Part shown: piece by piece, positions 32,326-52,612 of the stretch
Numbering within the stretch: the stretch's first letter is position 1
How the letters are laid out: every line of letters starts with the position of its first letter
Source of the DNA: Mumia xiangluensis
GTDB taxonomy: Bacteria > Actinomycetota > Actinomycetes > Propionibacteriales > Nocardioidaceae
Length of the DNA: 64,000 nt
Assembly (NCBI RefSeq): GCF_010994095.1
Contig: NZ_WJYO01000002.1
Location: 806,001 to 870,000, forward strand
Direction of reading: 5' to 3'
The notes under the pieces: model-generated
What the model was told of the DNA's origin: nothing
Seen by the model: the letters and a program-made list of their open reading frames with translations, nothing else
Database searches by the model: none
Program-made: the position numbers and the translations under genes

Positions 32326-33360
32326 GTGCACCCGGAGACGAGCCCGCTCGACGTCGCCGACGATGCTCTCGACGACGACGTCCCACGCGACCTCTCGGCG
32401 CGACCCGTCGGTTCCGACCGTGTCTTCGTCGGGGTCACCCGAGGCGTCGGCGTCCTCGTGTTCGTCATCGTCACCGCCATCGGTCTGTTCCTCGGTCTGC
32501 AGTCCGCACCGACGTTCGCCCACTACGGCTTCTCGTTCCTCACCGAGTCGCGCTGGCTCCCCAGTCAGGACATCATCGGCATCGCGTCGGTGGCGCTCGG
32601 CACCGTGCAGGTGGCGATCATCGCGCTCGTCCTCGCGATCCCGCTCGCCCTCGGCACGGCCCTGTTCATCACCGACTGGTCGCCCGAGAAGTGGCGGGCC
32701 GGGCTCACCTCGGCCGTCGACCTGATGGCGGCCGTCCCGGGAATCGTGTTCGGTCTGTGGGTGCTGCTGCTCGTCCAGCCCCACGCCACCCACGTCACGC
32801 ACTGGATCAGCAAGCACTTCGGCTGGATCCCGTTCCTCGAGGTCCACACCGACGTCGACTACCCGATCTGGAACCAGGCGCCCGGCTACCCCTCGTACGC
32901 GGGATCCGCTGCGATCGCTGCGATCGCGGTCGCCGCGATGATCTTCCCGATGGCCACCTCCGTGATGCGTGAGGTGTTCGCGCAGGCGCCCGCCGGGGAG
33001 AAGGAGGCCGCGCTGGCGCTCGGCGGCACGCGCTGGGCAGTCGTGCGCAACGTCGTCCTGCCGTTCGGCAAGAGCGGCATCATCGGCGGCTCGATGCTCG
33101 CGCTCGGCCGGGCGCTGGGCGAGACCATCTCCGTCGTCCTCGTCATCAATCAGGCGTTCGAGCTGAAGATCCGAGCCCTCGAGTCCGGCACCTCGACGAT
33201 CTCGGCCCTGATCGCGACCGGCTACAAGGAGGCCAGCCCGGCGCAGCTGTCGGCGCTGCTGACCGCAGGCTTCCTGCTGTTCGTGGTGACCCTCGTGGTC
33301 AACACCCTGGCCGCCGGCGTCGTGGCACGGGCGCGATCCGGAGCGGTGAGCGAGCTGTGA
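32326..33360 (+). CDS. pstC: Phosphate ABC transporter permease PstC
   Basis: The 344-residue GTG-started protein has six membrane segments and the BPD transporter EAA loop (EKEAALALGGTRWAVVRNVVLP). The region between helices 3 and 4 carries the long external loop common to PstC. Together with PstA it forms the membrane channel of the phosphate importer. The stop overlaps the GTG of pstA. The N-terminal 45 residues are acidic and precede the first helix. Confidence 0.92.
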   Translation: MHPETSPLDVADDALDDDVPRDLSARPVGSDRVFVGVTRGVGVLVFVIVTAIGLFLGLQSAPTFAHYGFSFLTESRWLPSQDIIGIASVALGTVQVAIIALVLAIPLALGTALFITDWSPEKWRAGLTSAVDLMAAVPGIVFGLWVLLLVQPHATHVTHWISKHFGWIPFLEVHTDVDYPIWNQAPGYPSYAGSAAIAAIAVAAMIFPMATSVMREVFAQAPAGEKEAALALGGTRWAVVRNVVLPFGKSGIIGGSMLALGRALGETISVVLVINQAFELKIRALESGTSTISALIATGYKEASPAQLSALLTAGFLLFVVTLVVNTLAAGVVARARSGAVSEL

Positions 33361-34460
33361 GCGCCCGCACCCTCACCCCTGCCGCCGAAACGCCTGCCTC
33401 CACCCAAGGCCCTGTCGCCGAGACGCTGCGGCAGACCCGCTCCACGACGCGCGACGACCGGATCGCGCTCGCGGGAGCCGTCCTCGCGTCGCTCGCCACC
33501 ACCTGGCTCCTGTACACGCAGGTCCTGCCCCTGTCGGGCCGCCTCGGTTTCATCATCGTCTGGTACGCCGTGTTCATCGCCTACTTCGCGGGACTGACCG
33601 CGTTGACCAGGCCCTGGCCGATCGTCGCCGACCGGATCGCGACGATCCTCGTCGTCGCCGCCCCCGTGATCGTCGGCGCCGCTCTGGCCAGCGCCGTCCT
33701 GTCGACCGTCATCGAGGGCTTCGAGCCGCTGATGCACGCCAACTTCTACGTCGACGACATGAGCGGGGTCCAGGGCGACGACGCGTTCGACAAGGGCGGG
33801 CTCCTGCACGCGATCGCCGGGACCGTCATCCAGATGAGCATCGCCGTCGCGATCGCCATGCCGCTCGGTCTGCTCACCGCGATCTTCACCGCCGAGGTCG
33901 GCGGCAAGATGGCGAACACGGTGCGGTCGGTGATCGAGGCGATGACCGCGATGCCGTCCGTCGTCGCCGGCCTGTTCATCTACACGGTCTGGCTCGTCTA
34001 CCTCGGCCAGCAGACCAGCGGGTTCGCCGCCTCGCTGGCCCTCGCCATCATGGCGCTGCCGATCATGGCGCGCGCGAGCGACGTCGTGCTGCGCGTCGTC
34101 CCCGGCGGACTGCGCGAGGCGTCGTACGCGCTCGGCGCCACCCGCTGGCAGACCGTCTGGCACGTCGTCCTGCCGACTGCCCGTCCGGCGCTGGCGACCG
34201 CGCTGATCCTCGGTGTCGCGCGCGCCGTCGGAGAGACCTCTCCGCTCCTCCTGACCTCCGGCGCGTCGACCTACTTCAACGCCAACCCGTTCAGCGAGCC
34301 GATGAACTCGCTGCCGCTCTACATCTACTCGAGCGCGTCGTCGGGCATCCCCCAGATGGCAGAGCGCGCCAACGCCGCTGCCGCGGTGCTGCTCGTCGTC
34401 GTGCTCACCCTGTTCACCACCGCCCGACTGATCGCCCGCCGAAAGGGAGCCCGAGGATGA
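33357..34460 (+). CDS. pstA: Phosphate ABC transporter permease PstA
   Basis: The 367-residue protein has six membrane helices and the EAA loop (GLREASYALGATRWQTVWHVVLP). The helix-flanking GLLTAIFTAEVGGK segment is typical of PstA. It pairs with PstC. The gene overlaps both neighbours by 4 bp (GTGA upstream, ATGA downstream), so translation is coupled through the operon. Confidence 0.92.
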   Translation: MSARTLTPAAETPASTQGPVAETLRQTRSTTRDDRIALAGAVLASLATTWLLYTQVLPLSGRLGFIIVWYAVFIAYFAGLTALTRPWPIVADRIATILVVAAPVIVGAALASAVLSTVIEGFEPLMHANFYVDDMSGVQGDDAFDKGGLLHAIAGTVIQMSIAVAIAMPLGLLTAIFTAEVGGKMANTVRSVIEAMTAMPSVVAGLFIYTVWLVYLGQQTSGFAASLALAIMALPIMARASDVVLRVVPGGLREASYALGATRWQTVWHVVLPTARPALATALILGVARAVGETSPLLLTSGASTYFNANPFSEPMNSLPLYIYSSASSGIPQMAERANAAAAVLLVVVLTLFTTARLIARRKGARG

Positions 34461-36142
34461 GGCCCGCCATGTTCGTACGACGCACCGTCGCCGTGGCGGT
34501 GAGCCTCGTCCTGGTCGGTCTCTTCGGCCCGACCGGCCCCGCGCAAGCGGCCGGCTACGCGCTGATCCAGGGTTCGGGCTCGAGCTGGGCCGCCAATGCC
34601 GTCAACCAGTGGGTCGCCGACGTGGCGGCCCAGGATCTCAAGGTCGTCTACACCGCCAACGGTGCCGCGCAGGGCCGCAAGGACTACGCCAACGTGCGCA
34701 CCGAGTTCGGCATCACCGACTCCCCCTACCGCGGGAAGGACCCGACGACCGGCGCCACGGACTCGTCCCTCGGGCGCTCCTTCGCCTACCTGCCCGTCGT
34801 CTCCGGCGGCACCTCCTTCCCGTACCACCTGGAGGTCAACGGGAAGATGCACCGCAGCCTGCGACTCTCCGGCGAGACGATCGCGAAGATCTTCACGAAC
34901 CAGATCACCAACTGGAACGACCCTGCGGTCACCCGGGACAACAACGGCAAGCAGCTGCCGTCCATCCCGATCATCCCGGTCGTCCGCGCCGACGGTGCCG
35001 GGGTCACGAACCAGTTCACGACCTGGATGAGCGACCAGTTCCCGACGCTGTGGCGGGGCTGCAACGGCGGGACGAACGCACCGACCGACTACTTCCCGCT
35101 CAACTGCGGGAAGTCATCGGGGCCGCAGAAGGCGCAGACCGGCTCCGACGGCGTCATGAACTACATCAAGTCCGGCGGCGCGAACGGCTCCATCGCCATG
35201 GAGGAGTACTCCTACCCGCTGCTCGCGAACTACCCCGTCGCGCGCATGCTCAACAAGGCGGGCTTCTACGTGCTGCCCACCCAGTACAACGTCGCGGTCG
35301 CCCTGACGAAGGCGAAGATCAACACCGACAAGGGCTCGCCGGACTACCTCACCCAGGACCTCGACAACGTCTACGTCAACGCCGACCGGCGCACGTACCC
35401 GCTGTCCTCCTACGTCTACGCGATCATCCCGACGGCCAAGTCGGACCGGCGCATGACCAAGGCGAAGTCGCAGAGCCTCGCCGACTTCCTCTACCACTCG
35501 ATCTGCCAGGGTCAGCGCGGCATCGGCCCGATCGGCTACTCGCCGCTGCCGATCAACCTGGTCCAGGCCGGCTTCGAGCAGATCGGCAAGCTGACGACGT
35601 TCGGCGCCACGATGAAGGACCGCAACGTCTCGACGTGCAACAACCCGACCTTCATCAAGGGGAAGCCGAACCAGAACTACCTCGCACAGATCGCCCCGAA
35701 CCCGCCCGCGTGCGCGAGGGCCGGCAACCCGCCCTGCGAGAACAACGAGGACGCGGTCATCGCCAACCCGACGTCGGACGGCAAGGCGCCGGCGGCGTCC
35801 GGCCCGAAGGCCCCCTCGGGCTCCGGCGGCAGCGGCGGCAGCGGCGGCCCGAAGGCGAACGGCGGCCCGAAGGCGAACGGCGCACCGCCGGCGGGCGGCG
35901 GCCCGTCCGCGGCCGCACCATCGGCGGGCTCGGCGCCGCCCAACGACCTCGGTGTCGTCACCTCCGACACCGCCGTCGCCGCGGGCGACGTCGCCGTCGT
36001 CCCGACGACCCTCAGCAGCGACGCCCGCTCCGGTCCGGGGCCGCTCCTGACGGCGCTGGTGGTCGCCCTGTTCGTCGGCGTCGTCGCGGCGCCCGCCGCT
36101 GTCGTCACCCTCGCCGGCCGTTCCACCAGGGGTCGCCGATGA
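34457..36142 (+). CDS. PstS-like phosphate-binding protein with C-terminal membrane anchor
   Basis: The 561-residue protein has a signal peptide (residues 1-31) and a PstS-type domain. The domain starts GSGSSWAANAVNQW and contains the LSGETIAKIFTNQITNWND segment that lines up with the PstS hinge region. After residue 440 comes a Gly/Ser/Pro/Lys linker, then a hydrophobic helix (about 528-553) and the basic tail RSTRGRR. The protein is therefore bound to the membrane by its C-terminus rather than by an N-terminal lipid. Typical PstS is a 370-residue lipoprotein. No LPxTG-like signal precedes the helix. It is coupled by ATGA to both neighbours. Confidence 0.8.
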   Translation: MRPAMFVRRTVAVAVSLVLVGLFGPTGPAQAAGYALIQGSGSSWAANAVNQWVADVAAQDLKVVYTANGAAQGRKDYANVRTEFGITDSPYRGKDPTTGATDSSLGRSFAYLPVVSGGTSFPYHLEVNGKMHRSLRLSGETIAKIFTNQITNWNDPAVTRDNNGKQLPSIPIIPVVRADGAGVTNQFTTWMSDQFPTLWRGCNGGTNAPTDYFPLNCGKSSGPQKAQTGSDGVMNYIKSGGANGSIAMEEYSYPLLANYPVARMLNKAGFYVLPTQYNVAVALTKAKINTDKGSPDYLTQDLDNVYVNADRRTYPLSSYVYAIIPTAKSDRRMTKAKSQSLADFLYHSICQGQRGIGPIGYSPLPINLVQAGFEQIGKLTTFGATMKDRNVSTCNNPTFIKGKPNQNYLAQIAPNPPACARAGNPPCENNEDAVIANPTSDGKAPAASGPKAPSGSGGSGGSGGPKANGGPKANGAPPAGGGPSAAAPSAGSAPPNDLGVVTSDTAVAAGDVAVVPTTLSSDARSGPGPLLTALVVALFVGVVAAPAAVVTLAGRSTRGRR

Positions 36143-38967
36143 GGACCCGACGCTGGTCGCGCGTCCTGCTCGCGACCGCCGTGGTGACCGGCACCCTCGG
36201 CGTGGTCCAGCTCGCCGGAAGCGCCGGAGCGGACGACTGGGCCTTCTCGGGGTCCGTCGTCGCCAAGCGCGCACACATCGGCGAGGACGGGTCGGCGTCG
36301 AAGGACGACGCCACTCAGACCAGGGTGGACGTGAAGGTGTCCGCGGTCGAGAACCTCCGCGGCCGGCAGTCGGTGCGGGTCGCGTGGAGCGGTGCTCACC
36401 CCACCGGGGGCGTCGTGCTGGACCCGACCTCGGCCGAGGCGAAGGACCAGGAGTACCCGGTCGTCGTGCTCCAGTGCCGCGGCGTCGACACGACCGGCGC
36501 CGTACCACGAGGACAGTCGCGGCTCGGCCCGGAGACCTGCTGGACCCAGAGCGCCCCGGAACGCTACTTCGCCTCGTCGTCGCAGACGCCGCCGTGGCGG
36601 GTCGACGCGTACGCGAGCGCTGCCGACCGCGCCCCGTCCGTCGGCGCCCCCGACCCGCTGCCGGAGGCGTGCTCGCGCCTCTCGAAGCCGATCACTGCGC
36701 GCTGGCTCCCGCTGCTCGCCATCGACGGCGAGACCTACTACGGCGGACCCGACCCCGGCGTCGGCTGTGCCAGCACCGCCCCCGAGGCGAGCGACACGAC
36801 CGACGTCGGCCTGCCCAGCAACACCGTGTACGGCGCGACCGCCAAGGACGGCACCGGACAGGCAGAGTTCGCGGTCTGGACGCGCTCGGAGAACGCCACG
36901 CTCGGATGCTCTGCCAGCGTCCGGTGCGCACTCGTCGTCGTGCCGATCGCCGGGCTGAGCTGCGACGCCTGGGGGAACAACCTCCGAGCACCGCAGCTCC
37001 AGGCCAACGGCACTCCCCTGACCAGCACCCAGAAGTCGAACGCCGATGCGACGTGCCGACGCACGGGTGCCTATGCCCCCGGGGAGACACGCGACTCGAC
37101 CAAGAGCTCCGACCAGGCCGTACGAGGTGCGTACTGGTGGTCGGCGTCCAACTGGCGCAACCGCGTCACGGTGCCGTTGTCCTTCGCCCCGACGGGCGAC
37201 GCATGCTCGGCCACGGGCGCCGGCGACGCCGTCGAGATCGGCGGTTCCGTCGTGCTCAACGAGCTGACCGCATCGTGGCGACCCGCCTTCTGCGCCGACG
37301 ACTCGCTGTTCGCCTTCAGCCACGTGCAGCAAGCCGACTTCTTCGCCCTCGACCAGGTCGACAGCGGCACCCTGCCGGCGGCGTTCGCGAGCACGGCACG
37401 CGGGACGGAGTTCAGCAGGCCCGTCGTGCCGGCGCCGGTCACCGTCGGTGGTTTCGCGATCGCGTTCGCGATCGACGACGCCAGCAAGAACCGGCAGGAG
37501 ACGCTCAAGCTGAACGCCAGGCTCGTCGCCAAGCTGGTCACGCAGTCGTACCCGGTGACGACCTGGCTCCGGTCGGGACGCGACGACCTGGCCGACAACC
37601 CTCTCAACATGTCGGTCGACCCGGAGTTCCGCGCCCTCAACCCGGGGTTGAAGTCCGACACCGACCTCAGCTCCGCCGGCGCGCTCCAGCTGCTGTCGGA
37701 GCGGGCGGACCTCACCGCGGCACTGACGGCGTGGATCGATGCCGACCCCGAGGCGCGCGCGTGGCTCGACGGCTCGGCTGACCCGTGGGGCATGCGGGTC
37801 AACGACCAGTACAAGGCCAAGCGGCTGTCGAGCATCGACGGGTTCCTGCTCGACACCTTCGAGGCTCCCGACTGGTACAAGACCGCGAACAAGTGCTACG
37901 GCAACTCGCCGTCGCCCTACCTCAACCTCGTCGCCAACCCCCAGGCGAACCTCTCCGCCATCACGATCAACCTCCAGTACGCCAGCTCCGCGGTGCTCAC
38001 GGCGTGCAACTTCCTCACCGAGGACCCGATCGGTTCGCTACCGCTGCGCAAGGAGGGACGCCAGGCGATCGGCAACCGGTTCGTCCTCGGCCTGGTCACC
38101 CTGTCGTCTGCCCAGCGCTACAACCTCCGTACGGCCGACCTCCAGACCGCGTCGACCGTTCCCGACGGCGCGACGTTCACCGACGCGTCCGGCCGCACGT
38201 TCGTGCACGGGGACACCGCCGCCCTCAAGGCCGCCGCCGCCGGGTTGAAGGCCGACCCTGAGACGAAGGTGTGGTCGTTCGACTACTCCACGCTCCAGAC
38301 CGACGACGGCAAGCAGGCGTACCCCGGTGCGCTGCCGGTGTATCTCGCCGCACCCACGACCGGCCTGACCGACGCCAACGCTCAAGACCTGGCGAAGCTC
38401 CTCTGCTACGCCGTCGACCCCGAGCGCGGCGCGAAGCAGGGCACCGCGAACGGGACGCTCCCGGCCGGGTACCTCGCGCTCACCGACTCGAACGGGCTCG
38501 GGGCGCAGCGCGCGTACACCCTGAACGCGGTCTCGGCCATCCGCAACCAGACCAAGTCGGTCCCGGCGCTCGACGCGAAGACGCTGTCGTACGACTCGGT
38601 GTGCAGCTTCAGGACCGCCGCAACGCCGACACCGACCACGGGAGCCCCTTCTGATCCCCCGGCCACAGCGAAGGTTCCGGACGCTCCGACCGCCGCCCCC
38701 GCCCCGGTGGCGCCGCTCGCCGCCCCTGACGTGCCGGTCAAGAAGGCTGCGCCGGTCGACGTGGCGACCGCGGTCTCGGAGGAGGTCACGCTGACCTCGG
38801 GGCAGCACTCGCGTCTCGGCAGCATCGGAGCACCGCTGCTGCTCGTCCTGGCGTTGGCCGCCGGGCTTGCGGGGTCGGTGCTGCGGCTGAGCCCCGAGCA
38901 GCTGGACACCTTCAGTCGCCGGGTCCGCTCAGGGGCACGATCGATCACGCGCGGCAGGCGACCATGA
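36139..38967 (+). CDS. Large secreted, C-terminally anchored protein with a PstS-like segment
   Basis: The 942-residue protein starts at the ATG overlapping the preceding stop by ATGA. A signal peptide occupies residues 1-31. The middle (residues about 425-500) has a pattern like the hinge of phosphate-binding proteins: PVTVGGFAIAFAID, then LKLNARLVAKLVTQSYP and DPEFRALNPGL. The N-terminal half is a distinct beta-rich region with many paired cysteines. A Pro/Ala-rich linker (about 833-880) leads to a membrane helix (about 895-915) and a basic tail. No sorting motif is seen. I do not recognise the family; a binding or adhesive role at the surface is inferred from context. Confidence 0.65.
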   Translation: MRTRRWSRVLLATAVVTGTLGVVQLAGSAGADDWAFSGSVVAKRAHIGEDGSASKDDATQTRVDVKVSAVENLRGRQSVRVAWSGAHPTGGVVLDPTSAEAKDQEYPVVVLQCRGVDTTGAVPRGQSRLGPETCWTQSAPERYFASSSQTPPWRVDAYASAADRAPSVGAPDPLPEACSRLSKPITARWLPLLAIDGETYYGGPDPGVGCASTAPEASDTTDVGLPSNTVYGATAKDGTGQAEFAVWTRSENATLGCSASVRCALVVVPIAGLSCDAWGNNLRAPQLQANGTPLTSTQKSNADATCRRTGAYAPGETRDSTKSSDQAVRGAYWWSASNWRNRVTVPLSFAPTGDACSATGAGDAVEIGGSVVLNELTASWRPAFCADDSLFAFSHVQQADFFALDQVDSGTLPAAFASTARGTEFSRPVVPAPVTVGGFAIAFAIDDASKNRQETLKLNARLVAKLVTQSYPVTTWLRSGRDDLADNPLNMSVDPEFRALNPGLKSDTDLSSAGALQLLSERADLTAALTAWIDADPEARAWLDGSADPWGMRVNDQYKAKRLSSIDGFLLDTFEAPDWYKTANKCYGNSPSPYLNLVANPQANLSAITINLQYASSAVLTACNFLTEDPIGSLPLRKEGRQAIGNRFVLGLVTLSSAQRYNLRTADLQTASTVPDGATFTDASGRTFVHGDTAALKAAAAGLKADPETKVWSFDYSTLQTDDGKQAYPGALPVYLAAPTTGLTDANAQDLAKLLCYAVDPERGAKQGTANGTLPAGYLALTDSNGLGAQRAYTLNAVSAIRNQTKSVPALDAKTLSYDSVCSFRTAATPTPTTGAPSDPPATAKVPDAPTAAPAPVAPLAAPDVPVKKAAPVDVATAVSEEVTLTSGQHSRLGSIGAPLLLVLALAAGLAGSVLRLSPEQLDTFSRRVRSGARSITRGRRP

Positions 38968-39884
38968 CGCTCCTCGAGGAACGGGCCCGGACGCAGCTGC
39001 ACGACGGGGTCGTCGACGCGTCGCCTCCGCCCTCGTCCACCGCAGTCCCGAGCCGTGTCACCGTGGCGACCGTGCTGCAGGCGCTGGCACTGCTCATCGT
39101 GTGGCTGCTGCTGTACCTGACCGTCCTGAGCAGCTTCCAGCACGGCCACGCGCAGCGGAGCCTGTACGCCGAGCTGCGTACCGAGCTCGCGCTCGGCGAG
39201 GCTCCGTCCGGTGCACCGATCGTGCCCGGCACTCCCCTCGCCGTGCTGTCGATCCCCGCCCTCGATCTCGGCGACGAGGTGGTGGTCGAGGGATCACGCA
39301 ACGAGCAGCTGCGGGTCGGCCCCGGACACGTCACCGGCACGGTGCTCCCCGGTCAGATCGGCGTGAGCGTCCTGGCGGGCCGCTCGACGACGTTCGGTGG
39401 ACCGTTCGGCGGCCTCGACGAGCTGCGCGCAGGCGACCCGATCGTCGTCACCACGGTGCAGGGGACGTTCCGGTACGACGTCGTCGCCGTCAGGGTCAAG
39501 GGAGACCCGGTCCCCGCTCCCCCGAAGGAGGGCCAGGGCCGGCTGACCCTGGTCAGCTCGTTGCCCGGACCCGGACCGCTCGGAGCGCTCCGACCCGCGA
39601 ACACCGTCTACGTCGACGCCGCGCTGGAGTCCGGTGCCGTCGCCGCCGGACCGGTCGGCCAGACCGACCTCGAGGCGACGTACATGTCGGGCCGGCTCGA
39701 CGTACCGACGCTCGCCCAGCTCGCCCTCGCCCTCCAGCTCCTCCTGCTCGCAGTCGCCGGGTTCGCCTGGGGCTGGCACCGCGGGAACCGCCGCGTCGTG
39801 TGGGCAGCAGGCATCCCCGTGGTCGTGGCCGCGCTGTGGCTCGCGACGTCGCTGTCCGCCCACCTCATCCCCGGCCTGATCTGA
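38964..39884 (+). CDS. Sortase-fold membrane protein lacking the catalytic His and Cys
   Basis: The 306-residue protein has an N-terminal membrane helix (residues about 34-57), a sortase-like domain (about 80-225) and two C-terminal helices. The domain follows class E/F sortase order: GPGHVTGTVLPGQ, then AGRSTTFGGPFGGLDEL where sortases have AGH, and LTLVSS where they have LTLVTC. Arg140 replaces the catalytic His and Ser199 replaces the catalytic Cys; Arg210 may be the retained catalytic Arg. As read, the protein cannot perform normal transpeptidation. It is coupled by ATGA to the 942-residue protein. A scaffolding or binding role is inferred. Confidence 0.75.
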   Translation: MTLLEERARTQLHDGVVDASPPPSSTAVPSRVTVATVLQALALLIVWLLLYLTVLSSFQHGHAQRSLYAELRTELALGEAPSGAPIVPGTPLAVLSIPALDLGDEVVVEGSRNEQLRVGPGHVTGTVLPGQIGVSVLAGRSTTFGGPFGGLDELRAGDPIVVTTVQGTFRYDVVAVRVKGDPVPAPPKEGQGRLTLVSSLPGPGPLGALRPANTVYVDAALESGAVAAGPVGQTDLEATYMSGRLDVPTLAQLALALQLLLLAVAGFAWGWHRGNRRVVWAAGIPVVVAALWLATSLSAHLIPGLI

Positions 39885-39968
39885 GTGCGCACCCAGGCCA
39901 GGGCACCGAACCGCAACACCCGAACCCACCCCAGTCCCCGTTTCACACCCGATATCGAAAGGCTCACC

Positions 39969-41333
39969 ATGTTCCGCACCCGGACCCTCGCCGCGACGGC
40001 GGTCGCCGGGCTGGTCGCATCGACCGCCCTGCTGGCCACCACCCCGGCCCAGGCCGATACCGCCCCGCAGGAGAAGGACGTCGTCTCGACCGGCTCCGAC
40101 ATCCTGCAGACCGCGTACAACTTCCTCGCCGACGGCTACGGCGACCTGCCCGGCTACAACACCGCCGGCAACCGCTGGCGCTTCATCAACTTCGACTCCT
40201 CCGGCGACGCCCAGGGACGTACGGCCTACACGGACCCGCGCCTGCTCACCACGATCACCGGCAACGGGACCGTCGGCGAGAGCGGCGTCAAGTACGTCAA
40301 GCAGAGCGAGGTCCAGGTCCTCAACCCGACGGTGTCCCTGCGTGCGGGACAGCCGCTGGTGGTCCGTCCCTCGGGCGGTGGCGGTGGCGGCCGTGACGCG
40401 ATCATCAACGACTACGTCGACGACAAGGGCATCGGCGACTGGATCGACGTGGGCCGCAGCCCCGACCCGGTCGACGCGTCGGGGGTGGCCAACCAGAACA
40501 AGGCCCAGGCACAGCTCGGCACGAAGCTCTACAGCGTCCAGTTCGGCACCGACCGGCAGGTCATCGCCACGGCCGCCGTGACGAACGCCCCGGCGACGCT
40601 GTCCGCCGAGACGGTGAAGAAGATCTACAAGGGCGAGATCACGAAGTGGAACCAGGTCCCCGGCAACGAGAGCGGCAGCCCCGAGACGATCATCCCGCTC
40701 ACGCTGCCCGACGACGCGGGCATGTGGAACACGTTCCTCGCCGGCATCCGCGCCGCCAACCAGCTGACCTCGACGACGTGGACCGACGCCGACGCCCGCT
40801 CGAACCCGAACAGCTTCAACGTCCAGCAGAACGACCCGACGGCGATCACCAACCTGCCGGAGGCCCAGCGCAGGAACGCCATCGTGCCGTTCCCGCGTAG
40901 CCGCGCCACGGTCGTCAACAACGGCTACTACACGGTCGCCCAGGACGGCGCGGGGCAGACCAACCCGTACAACGGCACCCGCACCTACACCGGCTCGTTC
41001 ACCTCGGGCGGGCAGACGCTCGGCCGGCACCGGGTCTCCGCGACCGCCTCGGGCATCAAGCTGCTCGCGGCGACCTCGACCGGCACGACCGCGTCCGACC
41101 CCTACGGTCAGAACTTCGCGCTGCGCGCGATCTTCCGCGAGTCCGACCTCGAGGACCCCACCCCGTGGCAGCCGGGCAGCAAGCTCAACTGGGCGCGGAC
41201 GCTGTTCTACAACCCGGGTGGCGCCACGCCGTTCGTCCAGACGCCTGCGGGCAAGGCACTCATCGAGGCCGCCGGCCAGGTCCCGACCTACCGCGTCTTC
41301 GGCACCGACAACCAGGAGATCGACGTCGACTGA
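39969..41333 (+). CDS. Second PstS-like secreted substrate-binding protein
   Basis: About 454 residues from the ATG at 39969. A signal peptide (residues 1-30) ends after TPAQA. The binding-protein hinge is clear: LSAETVKKIYKGEITKWNQV, with a following PLTLPDDAGMWNTFL segment. There is no lipobox and no C-terminal helix, so the protein is predicted to be released or held non-covalently. The 84-bp gap to the sortase-like gene is the first break in coupling in the operon. It is clearly different in sequence from the first PstS-like protein. Confidence 0.8.
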   Translation: MFRTRTLAATAVAGLVASTALLATTPAQADTAPQEKDVVSTGSDILQTAYNFLADGYGDLPGYNTAGNRWRFINFDSSGDAQGRTAYTDPRLLTTITGNGTVGESGVKYVKQSEVQVLNPTVSLRAGQPLVVRPSGGGGGGRDAIINDYVDDKGIGDWIDVGRSPDPVDASGVANQNKAQAQLGTKLYSVQFGTDRQVIATAAVTNAPATLSAETVKKIYKGEITKWNQVPGNESGSPETIIPLTLPDDAGMWNTFLAGIRAANQLTSTTWTDADARSNPNSFNVQQNDPTAITNLPEAQRRNAIVPFPRSRATVVNNGYYTVAQDGAGQTNPYNGTRTYTGSFTSGGQTLGRHRVSATASGIKLLAATSTGTTASDPYGQNFALRAIFRESDLEDPTPWQPGSKLNWARTLFYNPGGATPFVQTPAGKALIEAAGQVPTYRVFGTDNQEIDVD

Positions 41334-41357: not shown

Positions 41358-42044
41358 GTGAGCACCTCGCTGAACAGATCCGCACCGACCGACTCCGAGC
41401 CATTCGAGTCCGGGCCAGTCGAGTCCGGGCCAGTCGAGTCCGACCCGACCGGGGCACGCGTACGCCGCATGCCCCGGCGGGTGGGGGTCCTCGTCATCGC
41501 CACGGTGGTGGTCGTCACCACGGCCGTCGCGTGGTTCGCCAGCCGTGACCAGGTCGTCCCGTACACCGATCCGCAGTCCACCGGGCTGCTGACGCTGTGC
41601 GACGAGTCTGGCAAGCCCGTCACCGAGGGCAGGGTCGACGACACCCCGTTCGCGCCGATCGTCGTCGGTGCGACGCCCCTGGACGGCCGGATTCCCGGCG
41701 ACCTGGTCGCGAACGCCACGCTCTACGGCTACCAGCCGCGCGAGGCGATCGAGCCGCTGGAGTTCAGCGGGTCGCCGATCGGCGGACCTGTGCCGTTCGT
41801 GGATCACGAACGGCCGGCGACGCGGGTCGTACCGGACGCGTGGAGCATCGCGAACTTCGTCGAGGTGTTCCCCGCGGACCTCGACGGCTACGTCCAGCTC
41901 CGCCTGATCACCAGCGTCAGCGGCTTCGGCGCGAACACCACGTCGTACGACACCGCTGACATCAAGGTGGACGGCGAATCGTGGCACGTGGTGCGCGGCG
42001 GTCACGCCGACTGCACCGGCGCGGCGGCCCTCCTCGGCGACTGA
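41358..42044 (+). CDS. Membrane-anchored extracellular protein of unknown function
   Basis: The 228-residue GTG-started protein has a charged cytoplasmic tail, a single membrane helix (residues about 43-62) and an extracellular beta-rich domain with two Cys. The tail contains a short in-frame repeat (ESGPV twice, from 15-bp repeats around 41408-41437). I recognise no domain. Its place between the second pstS-like gene and the Ig-like gene suggests it belongs to the same surface apparatus. Confidence 0.6.
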   Translation: MSTSLNRSAPTDSEPFESGPVESGPVESDPTGARVRRMPRRVGVLVIATVVVVTTAVAWFASRDQVVPYTDPQSTGLLTLCDESGKPVTEGRVDDTPFAPIVVGATPLDGRIPGDLVANATLYGYQPREAIEPLEFSGSPIGGPVPFVDHERPATRVVPDAWSIANFVEVFPADLDGYVQLRLITSVSGFGANTTSYDTADIKVDGESWHVVRGGHADCTGAAALLGD

Positions 42045-42086: not shown

Positions 42087-43304
42087 ATGAAGATCACTCC
42101 ACGAACAGTGGCGAGCGTGGCCGCAAGCCTCGCGCTCGTCGCGGGCGCCGGCGGCGTCGCGGTCGCCGCCGACCCGCTCGACTGGTACGACGGTGACAGC
42201 GCGACCGTCGCCGACCCCGACGACGTCACGACACTCAAGATCGTCAGGGCCGACGGGACCGAGGTCACCTCGGGCACGCTCGACGACCCGCTCGGCGCGT
42301 TCGCCGTCGCGGCGGACGAGGTCCGCGCCGGCGACACGTCCGCGTCGTTGTTCGTCCACCTCACCTCGGCGGCGACGGCGGCGGGTGCCTGGAGCGGGCA
42401 GCAAGCCTCCGGTACGACCCGCTTCAGCGGCAGCGGCGCCGTCCCTGGCCCCACCGGGGTCGGTGCGAAGCCGTTCGTCTCGCTGGCGGGCTCGCTTCCG
42501 CTGGACCAGACGGTCGAGGCACTGCCGAGCACGGAGACGACCGGAACCTTCCCGGGCGTGTACGCGCTGCGTCTGCGCACCAGCTCGGCCACCGGCGGCG
42601 TCTCTAACGCGTACGCCTCCGCGTACGTCAAGGTCACCGGCTCGAGCTGGACCCTGACCGACCCGCCCAGCGGTGTCCCGACCACGCCCCCACCGGCGCC
42701 GGTGGCGACGGTGCGGCCGACGTGGGGCGCCGGCTTCGCGTACGGCGCGACGCGCAACGTCACGGTCGCCGTGGGCGGCGGCAGCACGGCCGCCAAGGGC
42801 ACCGTACGGCTGTACTCGGGGTCCACTGCCGTGAGCAGCACGAAGGCGCTGGACGCATCCGGCCGGGCGACGCTCACGATCGCGCGGGGCGTGCTGCGTC
42901 CCGGTGTGCGCAGGGTCAAGGTCGTCTTCACGTCCACCAACACGGCCGTCGTCCGGTCCGCGACGACCGCTGAGCACGCGTACGCAGTCGCCCGGGGCAC
43001 CGCTCCCGCGCCGACCTGGAAGGTGAGCAAGAAGGTGACGGCGAGGAAGGCCGGCAAGCTCCTCGTCTCCGTCGCGAGGCCAGCGGGTCTCGTCCAGCCC
43101 ACCGGCAGGGTCACCGTCGTGCTCAAGCGCGGCAAGAAGACCGTCGTCATCCGCAACAAGGCCCTCTCGAGCTCGGGCAAGGTCACCGTGACCGTGCCCA
43201 AGCAGAAGGCCGGCAAGTGGAAGGTGACCGTGAAGTACCTCGGCAGCACCGTCTACCTGCCGCGCAGCTCGGCCGCGAAGACGCTGGTCGTCGCCAAGAA
43301 GTGA
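42087..43304 (+). CDS. Secreted Ig-like repeat protein
   Basis: The 405-residue protein has a signal peptide (residues 1-28). Residues about 30-190 form an unassigned globular region. They are followed, after a Pro-rich linker (TPPPAPVATVRPTW), by two immunoglobulin-like beta-sandwich repeats of the Big_3/Big_5 type, the second very Lys-rich (VTARKAGKLLVSVARPAG, then VTVVLKRGKKTVVIR). Basic Ig-like tails often bind cell-wall polymers. It has no membrane anchor. An attachment role is inferred. Confidence 0.7.
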   Translation: MKITPRTVASVAASLALVAGAGGVAVAADPLDWYDGDSATVADPDDVTTLKIVRADGTEVTSGTLDDPLGAFAVAADEVRAGDTSASLFVHLTSAATAAGAWSGQQASGTTRFSGSGAVPGPTGVGAKPFVSLAGSLPLDQTVEALPSTETTGTFPGVYALRLRTSSATGGVSNAYASAYVKVTGSSWTLTDPPSGVPTTPPPAPVATVRPTWGAGFAYGATRNVTVAVGGGSTAAKGTVRLYSGSTAVSSTKALDASGRATLTIARGVLRPGVRRVKVVFTSTNTAVVRSATTAEHAYAVARGTAPAPTWKVSKKVTARKAGKLLVSVARPAGLVQPTGRVTVVLKRGKKTVVIRNKALSSSGKVTVTVPKQKAGKWKVTVKYLGSTVYLPRSSAAKTLVVAKK

Positions 43305-43373: not shown

Positions 43374-44207
43374 ATGACCACTGACCAGACCGTCATCGTG
43401 CCCGCGCTGGGCACGCTTCCGGCTCCGTCGCTCGCCTCGACCCTCCACGCACGGGAGGTGTCCGCGTGGTTCGGCCGCGCCAAGGTCCTCGACCGGGTCT
43501 CGATCGAGATGCCGGCCGGTCAGGTCACCGCGCTGATCGGTCCGTCCGGGTGCGGCAAGTCGACGTTCCTGCGGATCCTCAACCGGATGCACGAGCTCGT
43601 GCCAGGGGCGCGGCTCGCGGGGCAGGTCCTGCTCGACGGGCAGGACGTCTACGACCCCGAACGCCGGCTCACGGAGGCGCGCAAGTCGATCGGGATGGTC
43701 TTCCAGAAGCCGAACCCGTTCCCCGCGATGTCGATCCGCGAGAACGTCCTCGCGGGCCTGAAGATCACCGGCTCGCGGATCGGCAAGGACGAGCGCATCC
43801 ACCTCGTCGAGGAGTCACTGACCCGCGCCGGCCTCTGGAAGGAGGTGCGCGACCGGCTCGACGAACCCGGCTCGGCGCTGTCCGGAGGCCAGCAGCAGCG
43901 CCTCTGCATCGCCCGGTCTCTCGCGGTGAAGCCGAAGATCCTGCTGATGGACGAGCCGTGCTCGGCGCTCGACCCGACGTCGACCCGCGTCGTGGAGGAG
44001 ACGATCACCCAGATCGCGCAGGACGTCACGATCGTGATCGTCACGCACAACATGCAGCAGGCTGCCCGCGTCTCGCAGCGCTGCGCGTTCTTCCTGGCCT
44101 CGCACGGCACCCCGGGCGTCGTCGTCGAGCAGGGTCCGACGGACGTCATGTTCGACAACCCGGCCGATGCACGCACCGCCGACTACGTGAGCGGGCGCTT
44201 CGGCTGA
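43374..44207 (+). CDS. pstB: Phosphate ABC transporter ATP-binding protein PstB
   Basis: The 277-residue protein has Walker A (GPSGCGKST), Q-loop (VFQKPNPFP), signature (LSGGQQQR), Walker B (ILLMDEP) and the D-loop SALDPTST. The LNRMHEL and NPFPAMSI segments are PstB-specific. The N-terminal 27 residues are an extension beyond the usual length of about 250. It is the last gene of the locus and is separated by a strong hairpin, unlike the usual pstSCAB order. No phoU follows. Confidence 0.93.
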   Translation: MTTDQTVIVPALGTLPAPSLASTLHAREVSAWFGRAKVLDRVSIEMPAGQVTALIGPSGCGKSTFLRILNRMHELVPGARLAGQVLLDGQDVYDPERRLTEARKSIGMVFQKPNPFPAMSIRENVLAGLKITGSRIGKDERIHLVEESLTRAGLWKEVRDRLDEPGSALSGGQQQRLCIARSLAVKPKILLMDEPCSALDPTSTRVVEETITQIAQDVTIVIVTHNMQQAARVSQRCAFFLASHGTPGVVVEQGPTDVMFDNPADARTADYVSGRFG

Positions 44208-48651: not shown

Positions 48652-49041
48652 TTACAGGTAGCGGCAGACCTCGTCAGCGCTGCAGGTGTCTGGTTCGGGA
48701 TCTGCGGCGGCGTCGCGGAGCGCGGCGACGTTGACGCGAAGTGCGAGGAGATCGGTGATCTGTCGGTCGATGTCGGCCAGGCGTGCATCCAGCAGGTCAC
48801 GCACGTGGCCGCAGGGAGCCTGGCCGTGGTCGCGGATGTCGAGGATCTGCTTGATCTGGGCGAGGGTGAGCCCGGCGGCTTGGCCGCGGTGGACGAAGTC
48901 GAGCCGGGTGACGGCCTCGGGGGTGTAGGCGCGGTAGCCGGCCGGTGTGCGTTCGGCGGGCGGGAGTAGCCCTTGATCCTCGTAGAACCTCAGCGTCTTG
49001 GTGGTCGTGCCCGCAGCCTCGGCGAGCTCCCCGATCCGCAT
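48652..49041 (-). CDS. merR: MerR family mercury-responsive regulator
   Basis: About 129 residues from the ATG at 49041, with GGGAGG upstream. The N-terminus is the MerR winged helix (MRIGELAEAAGTTTKTLRFY), followed by the dimerisation helix. Cys77, Cys120 and Cys126 match the three-cysteine plan of mercury sensors, although the spacing differs from Tn501 MerR (82, 117, 126). It is divergent from merA across a canonical operator, which supports Hg(II) sensing. A related heavy-metal sensor remains possible. Confidence 0.85.
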   Translation of the reverse strand: MRIGELAEAAGTTTKTLRFYEDQGLLPPAERTPAGYRAYTPEAVTRLDFVHRGQAAGLTLAQIKQILDIRDHGQAPCGHVRDLLDARLADIDRQITDLLALRVNVAALRDAAADPEPDTCSADEVCRYL

Positions 49042-49068
49042 CCGGCCTCCCTTGTGTCGCAGGTCTCG

Positions 49069-49098
49069 CTTGACCTTCCCCTTCACTGGAAGGTCCAG
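49069..49098 (+). promoter_or_regulatory. mer operator-promoter
   Basis: CTTGACCTTCC and GGAAGGTCCAG form an 11-bp dyad with 10 matches around an 8-bp centre. The -35 TTGACC (49070-49075) and a -10-like CAGTAT (49096-49101) are 20 bp apart, the over-long spacing that MerR proteins correct by bending DNA. The dyad sits within this spacer, as in known mer and zinc or copper MerR promoters. Confidence 0.8.
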
Positions 49099-49145
49099 TA
49101 TCGCTGCATCAAGAGCTTTTCCCAACCACTCCGGGAGGAATCGGG

Positions 49146-50570
49146 ATGCAGACCAGGTACGACCTCGCGATCATCGGGTCGGGCGGCGCGGCGTTCGCCG
49201 CGGCCATTCGCGCGACCACGCTGGGCAAGTCGGTGGTCATGGTTGAGCGTGGCACGTTCGGCGGCACGTGTGTGAACACCGGCTGCGTGCCGTCCAAGGC
49301 ACTGATCGCGGCCGCCGAGGCCCGGCACGTCGCCGCGGACGCGTCGACCCGGTTCCCGGGCATCGCCACCGCCGCCGACCTGGTGGACATGGCCGCGCTG
49401 GTCGGCGGCAAGCAGGACCTCGTCGAGGCACTGCGCGGCGAGAAGTACGTCGACATCGCGGACTCCTACGGCTGGCAGATCCGCCACGGCGACGCGGCGT
49501 TCGCCGGCACCCCGGACGCTCCCGTGCTCGAGGTCACCGCGGCCGACGGCACCGTCGAGACCATCGAGGCCGAGCACTACCTGGTGGCCACCGGGTCCCG
49601 CCCTTGGGCCCCGCCGATCGACGGGCTGGACGAGGTCGGGTACCTGACCTCGACCACGGCGATGGAACTGACCGAGGTCCCGGAGTCGCTGCTGGTGCTC
49701 GGGGGCGGCTACGTGGCGCTGGAGCAGGCGCAGCTGTTCGCCCGTCTCGGGTCGAAGGTGACCCTGCTGGTTCGCTCCCGGCTAGCGTCGAAGGAGGAGC
49801 CGGAAGTCTCCAAGGCCGTGCAGGAGGTCTTCGCCCACGAGGGCATCCGGGTGGTCCGCCGCGCGGTCCCGACCCGCGTGACCCGCCATGAGGCCACCGG
49901 CCAGGTCGTCGTCACCGCAGACGTCTCGGGCGGTGAGCAGGAATTCCGCGCCGACCAGGTCCTGCTCGCACTCGGTCGACGGCCGGTCACCGACGCCCTG
50001 AACCTCGACGCGGTTGAGGTGAAGACCGGCGAGACCGGCGCGATCGTGGTCACCGACCAGCTGGGATCCTCCAACCCGCGGATCTGGGCGGCCGGCGACG
50101 TGACCGGGCACCCCGAGTTCGTCTACGTCGCAGCCCGCCACGGCACCCTGGTCGCCGAGAACGCGTTCACCGGCACCGGTAGGTCGGTGGACTACACCCG
50201 GTTGCCGCGGGTGACGTTCACCGGCCCCGCGATCGGTGCGGTCGGGATGACCGAGGCCCAGGTGCTCGCGGCCGGGATCCGCTGCGACTGCCGGGTGCTG
50301 CCGCTGGACTACGTGCCCCGGGCGCTGGTGAATCGGGACGTCCGTGGCTTCATCAAGATGGTCGCCAACGCCGACACCGGCGAGATCCTCGGCCTCACCG
50401 CGGTGAGCAAGGACGCCGGCGAGCTCGCCGCCGCCGGCGTCCACATCCTCGGCAAGACCATCTCCGAGGTCGCCGACGCCTGGGCGCCCTACCTGACCAT
50501 GACCGAGGGCATCCGGATCGTCGCCAAGGCCTTCACCACCGACGTCTCGAAGTTGTCCTGCTGCGCCTGA
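49146..50570 (+). CDS. merA: Mercury(II) reductase MerA
   Basis: The 474-residue flavoprotein has the FAD-binding start (DLAIIGSGGAAFAAA), the redox disulfide GGTCVNTGCVPSK (Cys42, Cys47), the NADPH-binding LLVLGGGYVALEQAQLF and the AAGDVTG segment. The C-terminal Cys pair (Cys472-Cys473) that delivers Hg(II) to the partner subunit is present in SCCA. The N-terminal NmerA metal-binding domain of many enzymes is absent, as in most actinobacterial forms. It reduces Hg(II) to volatile Hg(0). The start has GGGAGGAA 6 bp upstream. Confidence 0.95.
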   Translation: MQTRYDLAIIGSGGAAFAAAIRATTLGKSVVMVERGTFGGTCVNTGCVPSKALIAAAEARHVAADASTRFPGIATAADLVDMAALVGGKQDLVEALRGEKYVDIADSYGWQIRHGDAAFAGTPDAPVLEVTAADGTVETIEAEHYLVATGSRPWAPPIDGLDEVGYLTSTTAMELTEVPESLLVLGGGYVALEQAQLFARLGSKVTLLVRSRLASKEEPEVSKAVQEVFAHEGIRVVRRAVPTRVTRHEATGQVVVTADVSGGEQEFRADQVLLALGRRPVTDALNLDAVEVKTGETGAIVVTDQLGSSNPRIWAAGDVTGHPEFVYVAARHGTLVAENAFTGTGRSVDYTRLPRVTFTGPAIGAVGMTEAQVLAAGIRCDCRVLPLDYVPRALVNRDVRGFIKMVANADTGEILGLTAVSKDAGELAAAGVHILGKTISEVADAWAPYLTMTEGIRIVAKAFTTDVSKLSCCA

Positions 50571-50618
50571 CGCGGCACCCAGACAGCCCCAACGCCACTC
50601 AAGAAGGAGGGCATCACA

Positions 50619-51281
50619 ATGTCGGACCTCAGCACGCAACTTCCCCAACGACTCAACCGCCCCGAGGAGACCGGTCTCGACGCCGGCCTGCTGATCCCGC
50701 TGCTGCGCCTGCTCGTCGACGGCGACCCCGTGACCATCGAGCAGCTCGCCGCCGCCGCGGGCCGCACCCTCGACGAAGTACGGCGTGGTCTGGCTGCGGT
50801 GCCGGACACCGAGTACGACAACCAGGGCCGGGTCATCGGCCAGGGCCTCACGCTGCGCCCCACCCCGCACCGGTTCACCGTGGCGGGCGAGGAGCTCTAC
50901 ACCTGGTGTGCTCTGGATACCTTGATCTTCCCCGCCCTCCTCGACCGCCTGGCACACGTCGAGTCGGTCTCCCCGGTCAGCGGCGAGCCGATCCGGGTCA
51001 CCGTCGACCCCACCGAAGGGGTGACCAGCGTAGAGCCGGCCACCGCGATGGTGTCCCTGGTCAACCCTGAGGAGATCACCTCGATCCGCTCGTCCTTCTG
51101 CAACCAGGTGCACTACTTCACCTCCCCCGAGGACGCCGCAGGCTGGCTGGCCGAGCACCGCGACGCCGAGGTGGCCCCGGTGGCCGAGGCGTACCGCATC
51201 GGGGCCGCCTTCACCACCGGCCTGCTCGACCGCCTCCAAGCCGAGCCCGCCGTGGCCGACGGCTGCCACAGCTGCTGCTGA
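50619..51281 (+). CDS. merB: Organomercurial lyase MerB
   Basis: The 220-residue protein carries the MerB catalytic triad: Cys97 and Asp100 in YTWCALD, and Cys161 in SSFCNQVHYF. These match Cys96, Asp99 and Cys159 of the plasmid R831b enzyme. It breaks C-Hg bonds and passes Hg(II) to MerA. The conserved third cysteine region (usually CPATG) reads VSPVSG, so Cys117 of the reference is missing. The C-terminus ends GCHSCC, an extra Cys-rich tail that may bind mercury. It lies 48 bp after merA. Confidence 0.92.
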   Translation: MSDLSTQLPQRLNRPEETGLDAGLLIPLLRLLVDGDPVTIEQLAAAAGRTLDEVRRGLAAVPDTEYDNQGRVIGQGLTLRPTPHRFTVAGEELYTWCALDTLIFPALLDRLAHVESVSPVSGEPIRVTVDPTEGVTSVEPATAMVSLVNPEEITSIRSSFCNQVHYFTSPEDAAGWLAEHRDAEVAPVAEAYRIGAAFTTGLLDRLQAEPAVADGCHSCC

Positions 51282-51343
51282 CCAAACCCCCGAGACGGTC
51301 GCGTTTGGTTTCGTCAGGGCCCGCGGGCGTTACCGCAACCCGC

Positions 51344-52369
51344 CTACAAGCCGAGATCCTTGCTGGACGTGGTGGCGAGCGCCTCGAGCGGCCGGATGTA
51401 GCGGTTGACCACTACGCCGAGGTCCTTGTGCCGGGTCTGGGCGGCGATTCGGTTCAGCGGGACACCGGCGAGCGCGGCCGCGGTGGCGTGTCCGGCGCGG
51501 AGCGAGTGGGCGGTGATCCGGGTGCCGTCGAGTCCGGCGGCTTCGGCGCGGGTGCGGAGCATTCGGGCGGGGACGTGTCCCGAGAGGCGCTCGGAGCTGA
51601 CGCTGCTGCCCCAGATCCGGGTGAACAGGGCGCCGGGCGCATTGCCACGGATGGTCCGCCAGGCGTTGACGGCGGCGACTGGGTCTGTGAGGGCGTGCTG
51701 GCCGTGGACGACAGCGACCTGTTGGCCGTGACCTTCCGGGTCGGTCTTGGATTGCCGGATGTGTAGCAGGAGCCCGGCGGGCTTGTGCTCGATGTCGGCG
51801 AGGTCAAGGGCGACGAGTTCGGCTCGGCGCATCGCGGATGCGTAGCCGAGCAGGATGATCGCGGCATCGCGGATGCCGTGCGGGCTGGTGCGATCGATGC
51901 AGCCGACGATCTGGCGGATCTCCTCGACCGACAGTGGTCGGGCGAGACGTCGAGGTGCTGCGCCATAGGTGCGACGGAGTCCGCGGCGGACTTGGCGGAC
52001 GGCCTCGGAGGCGATCGGGTCGACGGTTCCGGTGGTCCTGTGGACGTGCCGGATGACGGTGCAGGCCATGTCGAGGGTGCCGGTGGCGCGGCCGGCTTCG
52101 GCGCGTTCGGTCAGGTAGGCGCAGACGGTGAGTGGGTCGGCGGGCACGGCGGCGACGCCGCGTTCGGTGCACCAGCGTTGCCATTGGCCCCAAACGATGT
52201 CGTAGAGGCGCCGGGTGCCGTCGGTGCGCGCGGCGGCGAGGGCCTCACCGATGCGCGCGGCATCCGCGGGCGTGAGTCCGGCGCGCCTCAGGTCAGGATC
52301 GTCCGTGGTGGTGGACGAGAAGGTGGGTCGGGCGGTGGCCGGCAGCGCGGCGATCATGAGTGTGTTCAT
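51344..52369 (-). CDS. Tyrosine recombinase/integrase of the mer island
   Basis: About 341 residues from the ATG at 52369; a start at 52486 would add 39 Arg/Trp-rich residues. The N-terminal core-binding domain is followed by the catalytic domain with Arg181 (SAMRRAEL), His288-x-x-Arg291 (HSLR), His314 (TRHKD) and nucleophile Tyr324 (NRYIRP). All five key positions are visible, so it should be active. Its place beside attR at the intact tRNA end is typical of tRNA-targeting integrases. Confidence 0.88.
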   Translation of the reverse strand: MNTLMIAALPATARPTFSSTTTDDPDLRRAGLTPADAARIGEALAAARTDGTRRLYDIVWGQWQRWCTERGVAAVPADPLTVCAYLTERAEAGRATGTLDMACTVIRHVHRTTGTVDPIASEAVRQVRRGLRRTYGAAPRRLARPLSVEEIRQIVGCIDRTSPHGIRDAAIILLGYASAMRRAELVALDLADIEHKPAGLLLHIRQSKTDPEGHGQQVAVVHGQHALTDPVAAVNAWRTIRGNAPGALFTRIWGSSVSSERLSGHVPARMLRTRAEAAGLDGTRITAHSLRAGHATAAALAGVPLNRIAAQTRHKDLGVVVNRYIRPLEALATTSSKDLGL

Positions 52370-52499
52370 GGCCCTGTCGTAGCGGCGTCGACGTCGCCAC
52401 CAGCGGCGGGGCTCAGCCTCGACCGGGGTGACGCGACCGGCCACGACCTTGGTCAGATAAGGCTGACTTTGTGATGACCGAGTCAAGTTAGAAAGCTTT

Positions 52500-52531
52500 C
52501 AGGCTCGGTTCCCCAGAGGGAACCGAGCCTG
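52500..52531. terminator. Hairpin after the intact tRNA-fMet
   Basis: A perfect 14-bp inverted repeat (CAGGCTCGGTTCCC and its complement) with a 4-bp loop. It follows the tRNA on the minus strand and also lies between the tRNA and the integrase start. It is the island-side counterpart of the host hairpin at 48181-48212. Confidence 0.7.
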
Positions 52532-52535
52532 AATT

Positions 52536-52612
52536 TGGTAGCGGGGGCAGGATTTGAACCTGCGACCTCTGGGTTATGAGCCCAGCGAGCTACCGAGCTG
52601 CTCCACCCCGCG
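52536..52612 (-). tRNA. Initiator tRNA-fMet (anticodon CAT), second copy, rebuilt by the island
   Basis: A 77-nt initiator tRNA with encoded CCA, three G:C pairs in the anticodon stem and the C1:U72 end. The T stem is GCAGG/CCTGC, one compensated pair different from the copy at 23061. Bases 52538-52573 (the 3' half) come from the attR repeat, so the 3' end was probably supplied by the island. Confidence 0.95.
52538..52573 (-). other. attR: core repeat within the intact tRNA-fMet
   Basis: This is the right-hand copy of the 36-bp direct repeat that bounds the mer island. It covers the anticodon-stem to acceptor-stem 3' part of the tRNA. The crossover must lie within it; the exact point cannot be set because the repeat is identical. 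Confidence 0.85.

Follow-up and report, generated by a model that had tools for sequence, protein, structure and literature searches.

What does a sortase do inside a phosphate importer operon once it has lost the residues that make it an enzyme? The question is raised by a 64,000-nucleotide stretch of the Mumia xiangluensis genome (RefSeq assembly GCF_010994095.1, contig NZ_WJYO01000002.1, positions 806,001 to 870,000 of the forward strand), the whole of which is hereafter called the window. An open reading frame (ORF) at 38964-39884 on the forward strand, confirmed as real, encodes a 306-residue protein that keeps the sortase fold and none of the sortase catalytic residues; we refer to it as the pseudosortase. 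It belongs to a run of genes for a variant of the Pst (phosphate-type) ATP-binding cassette (ABC) importer and directly follows the genes of two PstS-like proteins with C-terminal membrane segments, designated S561 and P942. Its homologues across the Actinomycetota share the catalytic losses and the association with this operon, and close relatives are under purifying selection. We propose, with about an even chance of being right, that the pseudosortase is a non-enzymatic, constant docking subunit of the variant importer, derived from a class E-like sortase.

A sortase fold without an active site

The Pfam Sortase family matches the protein above its cut-off (E 3.3e-14; 53.1 bits against 26.6). 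The best NCBIfam class is the class E sortase NF033747 (E 1.4e-19), at 70.8 bits below its own cut-off of 160, and the class F sortase match is weak to marginal (0.025). We therefore describe the protein as class E-like rather than class E/F: the E half of that initial label stands as the best class model, though below its cut-off, and the F half was dropped. An AlphaFold2 model built on an alignment of 63 sequences reached a mean predicted local distance difference test score (pLDDT) of 90.4, nowhere falling below 50 over three or more consecutive residues. It predicts long helices at residues 29-77, 247-273 and 276-301, with a beta barrel at about 91-221 between the first and second, and we infer that the barrel is extracytoplasmic. 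All 50 rows listed by Foldseek against the PDB are sortases, the best being 4d70 (1.8e-11), with SrtE (5go6) at 8.3e-10. The family match, the model and the structural matches agree that the sortase plan is kept.

To place the catalytic positions, the protein was aligned with three active sortases encoded in this genome. The alignment bears out the initial assignment of Arg140 (codon 39381-39383, forward strand) to the catalytic His position and Ser199 (39558-39560) to the catalytic Cys position, and it reveals a third replacement that had been overlooked, Thr214 (39603-39605) at the position of the catalytic Arg. Residues were then counted in 111 homologues, comprising 31 rows and 80 loci (the best 80 of 218), from overlapping genomes and with 100 distinct sortase-domain strings. 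None of the three catalytic residues is kept in any of them. The His position is occupied by Arg in 108 and Lys in 3, the Cys position by Ala in 89, Ser in 15, Gly in 6 and Thr in 1, and the Arg position, which never holds Arg, by Val in 44, Thr in 30, Ala in 23 and others in the rest. Asp218 (39615-39617), within a VDA motif, is near-invariant (110 of 111); its position is H or F in the three active sortases. The residue after the GPGH-type motif is aromatic in 15 of 15 active rows and in none of the 111 pseudosortase rows (R 78, L 24, V 6, K 2, Q 1). As far as its residues tell, the window protein is catalytically dead.

An enzyme with new chemistry, in which a residue other than the lost Cys acts as nucleophile, would be in keeping with Ser199 in the window copy and with the conservation of Arg140 and Asp218. 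A serine nucleophile at position 199 is, however, not conserved, since most relatives carry Ala there and six carry Gly, and it was rejected as a candidate; the third catalytic residue is lost as well. We consider such an enzyme very unlikely.

A close known comparison is SrtE of Streptomyces (5cuw, 5go5, 5go6), from the same phylum, which shares the sortase barrel, the N-terminal membrane helix and the GPGH and GxPF motifs. The pseudosortase differs from it in the replacement of His, Cys and Arg alike, in two extra C-terminal helices, in its tie to Pst operons and in its score of less than half the class cut-off. The class E tyrosine is Tyr229 of SrtE1 (PMC5148588), for which residue counting gave no clear equivalent on the pseudosortase. 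The same genome encodes four sortases elsewhere that keep His and Cys, and a second pseudosortase (contig C1, 176230-177057) that is 43% identical to the one in the window.

Selection and descent

The ratio of non-synonymous to synonymous substitution rates (dN/dS) was 0.054-0.284 in 12 pairs picked for closeness, and 15 columns are invariant in the alignment of 63 sequences. With no homologue retaining His or Cys and close pairs under purifying selection, the initial view of the protein as a pseudoenzyme is strongly supported. It had been set to fall if orthologues at this locus retained His and Cys, and the count turned up none that do. The loss of catalytic residues might alternatively mark a gene in decay that travels with the operon, and the patchy occurrence of the locus in its own genus, where P942 was found in 0 of 5 other members examined, would fit such a history. 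Set against this are the dN/dS values, the invariant columns, the identical losses in all 111 homologues and the spread of the loci over many genera of the phylum, and we regard decay as extremely improbable. Decay is contradicted by the selection data and was rejected on the dN/dS values, and the shared losses show that the window copy is no isolated case.

Descent was examined in a tree of 111 hand-chosen rows, a set distinct from the residue-count homologues and made up of 91 rows of the pseudosortase family, 5 deep pseudosortase rows and 15 active rows, with the catalytic columns left in and a midpoint root. A single branch (support 99/99) separates the 96 pseudosortase rows from the 15 active class E-like rows. 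Between the active rows and the five deepest pseudosortase rows, one change suffices in 98% of 200 bootstrap trees. In the alignment, the deep row L149 keeps His and Arg, with Ser in place of Cys; in L154 both His and Cys are replaced, by Arg and Ser respectively, and the catalytic Arg is still present; L153 and L155 retain none of the three. Read in this way, the four rows show stages of catalytic loss; the placement of L149, L153 and L155 is unsure because of their long branches.

The nearest active relatives among those fetched are class E-like sortases that continue into a C-terminal membrane region with LLP at its end (for example L142, L143, L144, L147 and L156). The match to the pseudosortase profile reaches into this C-terminal region. 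They differ from the pseudosortase in keeping His, Cys and Arg and in having no PstC, PstA, S561 or P942 alongside.

A variant Pst operon across the Actinomycetota

Four consecutive four-base overlaps (GTGA or ATGA) chain the genes for PstC, PstA, S561, P942 and the pseudosortase, all on the forward strand. The PstC-like permease (32326-33360) passes the TIGR02138 cut-off (228.8 bits against 196.45), and the PstA-like permease (33357-34460), which overlaps PstC by GTGA, passes that of TIGR00974 (228.9 bits against 193.45). S561 (34457-36142; ATGA overlap with PstA) is a PstS-like binding protein whose TIGR00975 match (162.2 bits) falls below the cut-off of 205; it has an N-terminal signal-like segment, a long linker and a C-terminal membrane segment. 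P942 (36139-38967) is joined by ATGA overlaps both to S561 and to the pseudosortase, and consists of an N-terminal beta-rich region, a PstS-fold domain and a C-terminal membrane segment. The best PDB matches of its AlphaFold2 model (pLDDT 86.5) in Foldseek are PstS structures (1pc3, 8e-10; 5wnn, TMt 0.73), and we therefore take it to be a second, giant PstS-fold protein. The C-terminal segments of S561 and P942 are strongly hydrophobic, that of P942 being modeled as a helix at residues 892-916, in agreement with the C-terminal anchoring first proposed for both.

Next on the forward strand come SBP2 (39969-41333), a further PstS-like protein (Pfam PBP_like_2, 8.1e-10) with coordinates counted from the ATG at 39969, an upstream GTG at 39885 also being listed; g228 (41358-42044), with no matched family and an N-terminal hydrophobic segment; Ig405 (42087-43304), with immunoglobulin-like (Big_3_5) repeats; and a PstB-like ATPase (43374-44207), for which TIGR00972 is by far the best family at 336.9 bits, just below its cut-off of 343.2. 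The locus thus resembles the PstSCAB phosphate importer in its clustered PstC, PstA and PstB homologues and its PstS-like proteins, and departs from it in the C-terminal membrane anchor of its PstS, the giant second PstS-fold protein and the pseudosortase. The same genome also encodes a canonical Pst set (contig C1, 1194070-1197236; PstS at 224.7 bits, above cut-off) and a second variant locus (L161) of identical order, PstC-PstA-S561-P942-pseudosortase-SBP2-PstB. PHO-box-like patterns number 11 in the window, where 5.1 would be expected and 5 of 100 shuffles reach as many, and none lies directly upstream of pstC; because of this modest excess and this placement we make no regulatory claim. 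The idea of a plasmid-borne gene was rejected, as none of 72,556 plasmid records covers 80% of the query and three give partial matches.

The association of these genes recurs widely. In the 80 loci, many of which end at a contig or flank edge, tblastn detected P942 in 75, PstB in 74, S561 in 71, PstA in 69, PstC in 53, SBP2 in 44, g228 in 11 and Ig405 in 10. The pseudosortase begins 15-2,316 bases from the locus start in the five loci that lack P942 (L062, L081, L106, L123 and L128), so that the P942 gene may lie beyond the sequence. The loci come from Nocardioides, Aeromicrobium, Cryobacterium, Streptomyces, Cellulomonas, Jiangella, Acidimicrobiaceae and others. One of them, L106 (3,414 bases), is from a record titled Stenotrophomonas maltophilia and holds an actinobacterial-type pseudosortase and PstB; it is probably contamination of that assembly.

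Because these loci had been found with the pseudosortase family itself, a search from the P942 side is less biased. At E 1e-10, P942 matched 16 genomes among the 396 searched from the phylum, with eight strong matches (>600 bits) in seven genomes. No more than 5.8 kilobases (kb) from each of the eight, on its own contig and strand, lies a full-length pseudosortase match, and none of these pseudosortases has the catalytic His or Cys. The pseudosortase profile (A2) matches 223 of the 396 genomes, a figure that includes ordinary class E sortases and is not a count of pseudosortases. At the level of the order, a near-full-length pseudosortase match (E <=7.2e-29) was counted by hand in 63 of 293 genomes, with active sites checked for those that are among the 31 rows. 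P942 was not found in the five other members of the window's genus (G085, G088, G277, G293 and G294), and, judged by these matches, the variant locus is patchy within that genus.

Loci of active relatives present a different picture: in all 12 (5-17 kb each) there is no match to PstC, PstA, S561 or P942. Seven of them (L141, L144, L146, L147, L148, L152 and L156) have a weak PstB-like ORF (50-70 bits) on the opposite strand, which is probably another ABC ATPase. Eight further pseudosortase loci were examined, of which seven contain PstC, PstA and PstB together; the remaining one, L149, on a 4.5 kb contig, gives only weak S561 and SBP2 matches.

Candidate ligands

The tails of S561 and P942 both consist of a variable Ala/Gly/Pro-rich linker followed by a membrane segment. 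The S561 linker holds two islands of conservation. The first, VDPETG or YDENG, has G in its glycine column in 63 of 69 tails and resembles a sortase pentapeptide with Asp in place of Leu; the second directly precedes the membrane segment and has L in 59 of 69. By a pattern defined after the alignment was inspected, the strict form DPxTG occurs in 39 of 72 S561 linkers and a broad form in 55 of 72, where shuffles average 0.4 and 2.4 and the P942 tails give 0 and 1 of 76. The DPETG-like motif is a candidate ligand in most relatives. In four loci of Compostimonas and Cryobacterium (L078, L084, L093 and L097) the island before the membrane reads LPDTG, LAETG or LADTG. Close Cryobacterium relatives differ in its Thr, a variation that would fit an island left uncut.

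The initial annotation held that the anchored neighbors have no LPxTG-type signal. This is true of the window, where LPXTG anchor models at E 0.1 match none of S561, P942, the pseudosortase, SBP2, g228 and Ig405, and does not extend to the relatives: in 9 of 80 loci (L068, L080, L084, L090, L092, L100, L101, L124 and L125) an LAxTG-type tail is found on a gene whose end lies no more than about 1.2 kb upstream of the pseudosortase. The scan, run without a shuffle control, matched 20 tails across the 80 loci: 9 on the upstream gene, 6 on S561 and 5 at other places, some of these surely due to chance. A WxL-interacting-protein domain is present above cut-off in L100 (9.6e-10), WxL-interacting matches below cut-off in L120 and L064, and a weak WxL match in L058; WxL-interacting queries from L100 and L120 match L158, L159 and L160 (338, 268 and 135 bits). 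The window has no WxL match at E 0.1. Such loci call to mind the Csc/WxL clusters of Firmicutes, reportedly cell-surface systems, to which they are alike in their LAxTG tails and WxL or WxL-interacting matches, the latter mostly below cut-off. We know of no Pst transporter or pseudosortase in Csc/WxL clusters. In Actinophytocola, a phytase-like protein (L098, 11645-12712; E 4.6e-41) is encoded between the pseudosortase and PstB. Together, the LAxTG, WxL-type and phytase neighbors link the system with the cell surface and, loosely, with phosphate.

These tails could also speak for an adaptor or competitor that binds LAxTG-type signals uncut and either passes them on to active class E sortases encoded elsewhere or keeps them away from these enzymes. 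The upstream tails in nine loci, the weak anchor-model matches in some of them, the four sortases of this genome that keep His and Cys, and the LPDTG, LAETG or LADTG tail of S561 itself in four loci would all suit such a protein. Yet the scan found no upstream LAxTG tail in 71 of the 80 loci, and no window protein matches an anchor model. The aromatic residue after GPGH, present throughout the active rows and gone from all 111 pseudosortases, further indicates that the groove has changed. An adaptor of this kind seems to us unlikely.

Alternatively, the emptied site with its conserved arginines might bind an anion or a wall polymer, such as phosphate or a teichoic-acid-like chain, and feed or sense phosphate for the Pst system. 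Position 140 is Arg or Lys in all 111 homologues, Arg124 is found in 100 and Arg123 in 78, and both the Pst context and the phytase-like protein of L098 would be in line with such binding. The window copy, in contrast, has Val123 and Thr124 and so is without both extra arginines, and the partner of Arg140 may be the near-invariant Asp218 instead. We think an anion binder distinctly unlikely.

Cargo

Most S561 relatives carry the phosphate-loop pattern RSDGSGT/S. The window S561 reads RADGAGV at this loop, as against RSDDSGT in the canonical PstS of the same genome. In the window copy and L050-L056, a clade of eight, Ala stands in place of the loop Ser, which is kept in the other 64 of 72 aligned rows; a loss of the phosphate loop in all S561 proteins was therefore rejected. 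The Ala of the window clade possibly reflects a change of ligand. Given the homology to PstS, phosphate is likely the cargo of S561 relatives in general, and its transport by the window copy is uncertain.

Proposed role

In the docking role that we favor, at the even confidence given above, the sortase barrel would stand above the membrane, held there by the three-helix membrane protein. Its former substrate groove, or its surface, would bind, without cutting, an exposed segment of S561, P942 or both, and these would thus be kept beside the PstC/PstA channel in place of a lipid anchor, the usual attachment of PstS in Gram-positive bacteria. The module may, in certain lineages, additionally hold LAxTG or WxL-type surface proteins encoded in its own locus. 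Whereas the catalytic losses, the selection and the linkage are observed, docking or binding is what we infer; the scaffold or binding role suggested in the initial annotation is plausible.

Several points weigh against docking. Steady linkage shows a shared task, not binding. The window S561 is among the seven of eight rows of its clade without a DPETG-like motif, which therefore cannot be the ligand in the window locus. The likeness of this motif to LPxTG may moreover be chance, because it resembles the beta-turn repeat DxxxGxxxxG, which is common. LAxTG tails beside the pseudosortase are confined to the nine loci named above. Phosphate as cargo is doubtful for the window copy, since S561 scores below the PstS cut-off and its loop is altered. 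Finally, nine of the 396 genomes have weak, partial P942-like matches (46-79 bits), some with internal stops. In three of these (G310, G325 and G674) the contig with the P942-like match also carries a deep pseudosortase; in G582 an active sortase lies on a different contig, and in G347, G383, G669, G693 and G700 the pseudosortase profile matches nothing at E 1e-10.

We tentatively put forward, as a doubtful though real possibility, a broader reading in which a sortase family turned from enzyme to receptor, using non-covalent recognition of a sorting-signal-like peptide as an obligate ABC importer subunit that docks a C-terminally anchored PstS to the channel. Sortases are known as enzymes, and a family found across the phylum in which the fold is kept under purifying selection while all three catalytic residues are lost suggests that the substrate groove is valuable in itself. 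If docking is correct, Gram-positive bacteria would have a non-lipoprotein way to keep binding proteins beside a transporter. Annotators and inhibitor screens should be aware that genes labeled 'sortase' in these genomes may not encode enzymes. In searches confined to open-access papers, no listed title or abstract opening described a pseudosortase or a sortase of a Pst operon, and the word pseudosortase appeared in none of the papers covered.

Other features of the window

Farther along the window, at 48652-52612, are ORFs that we take from their sequences to be MerR-, mercuric reductase- and organomercury lyase-like. They are adjoined by a presumed tyrosine recombinase-like ORF (51344-52486), beside which lies a tRNA-Met (52536-52612), and the segment is possibly a mercury-resistance island. 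On the reverse strand, positions 57186-63861 hold a run of what are presumably mce-like proteins.

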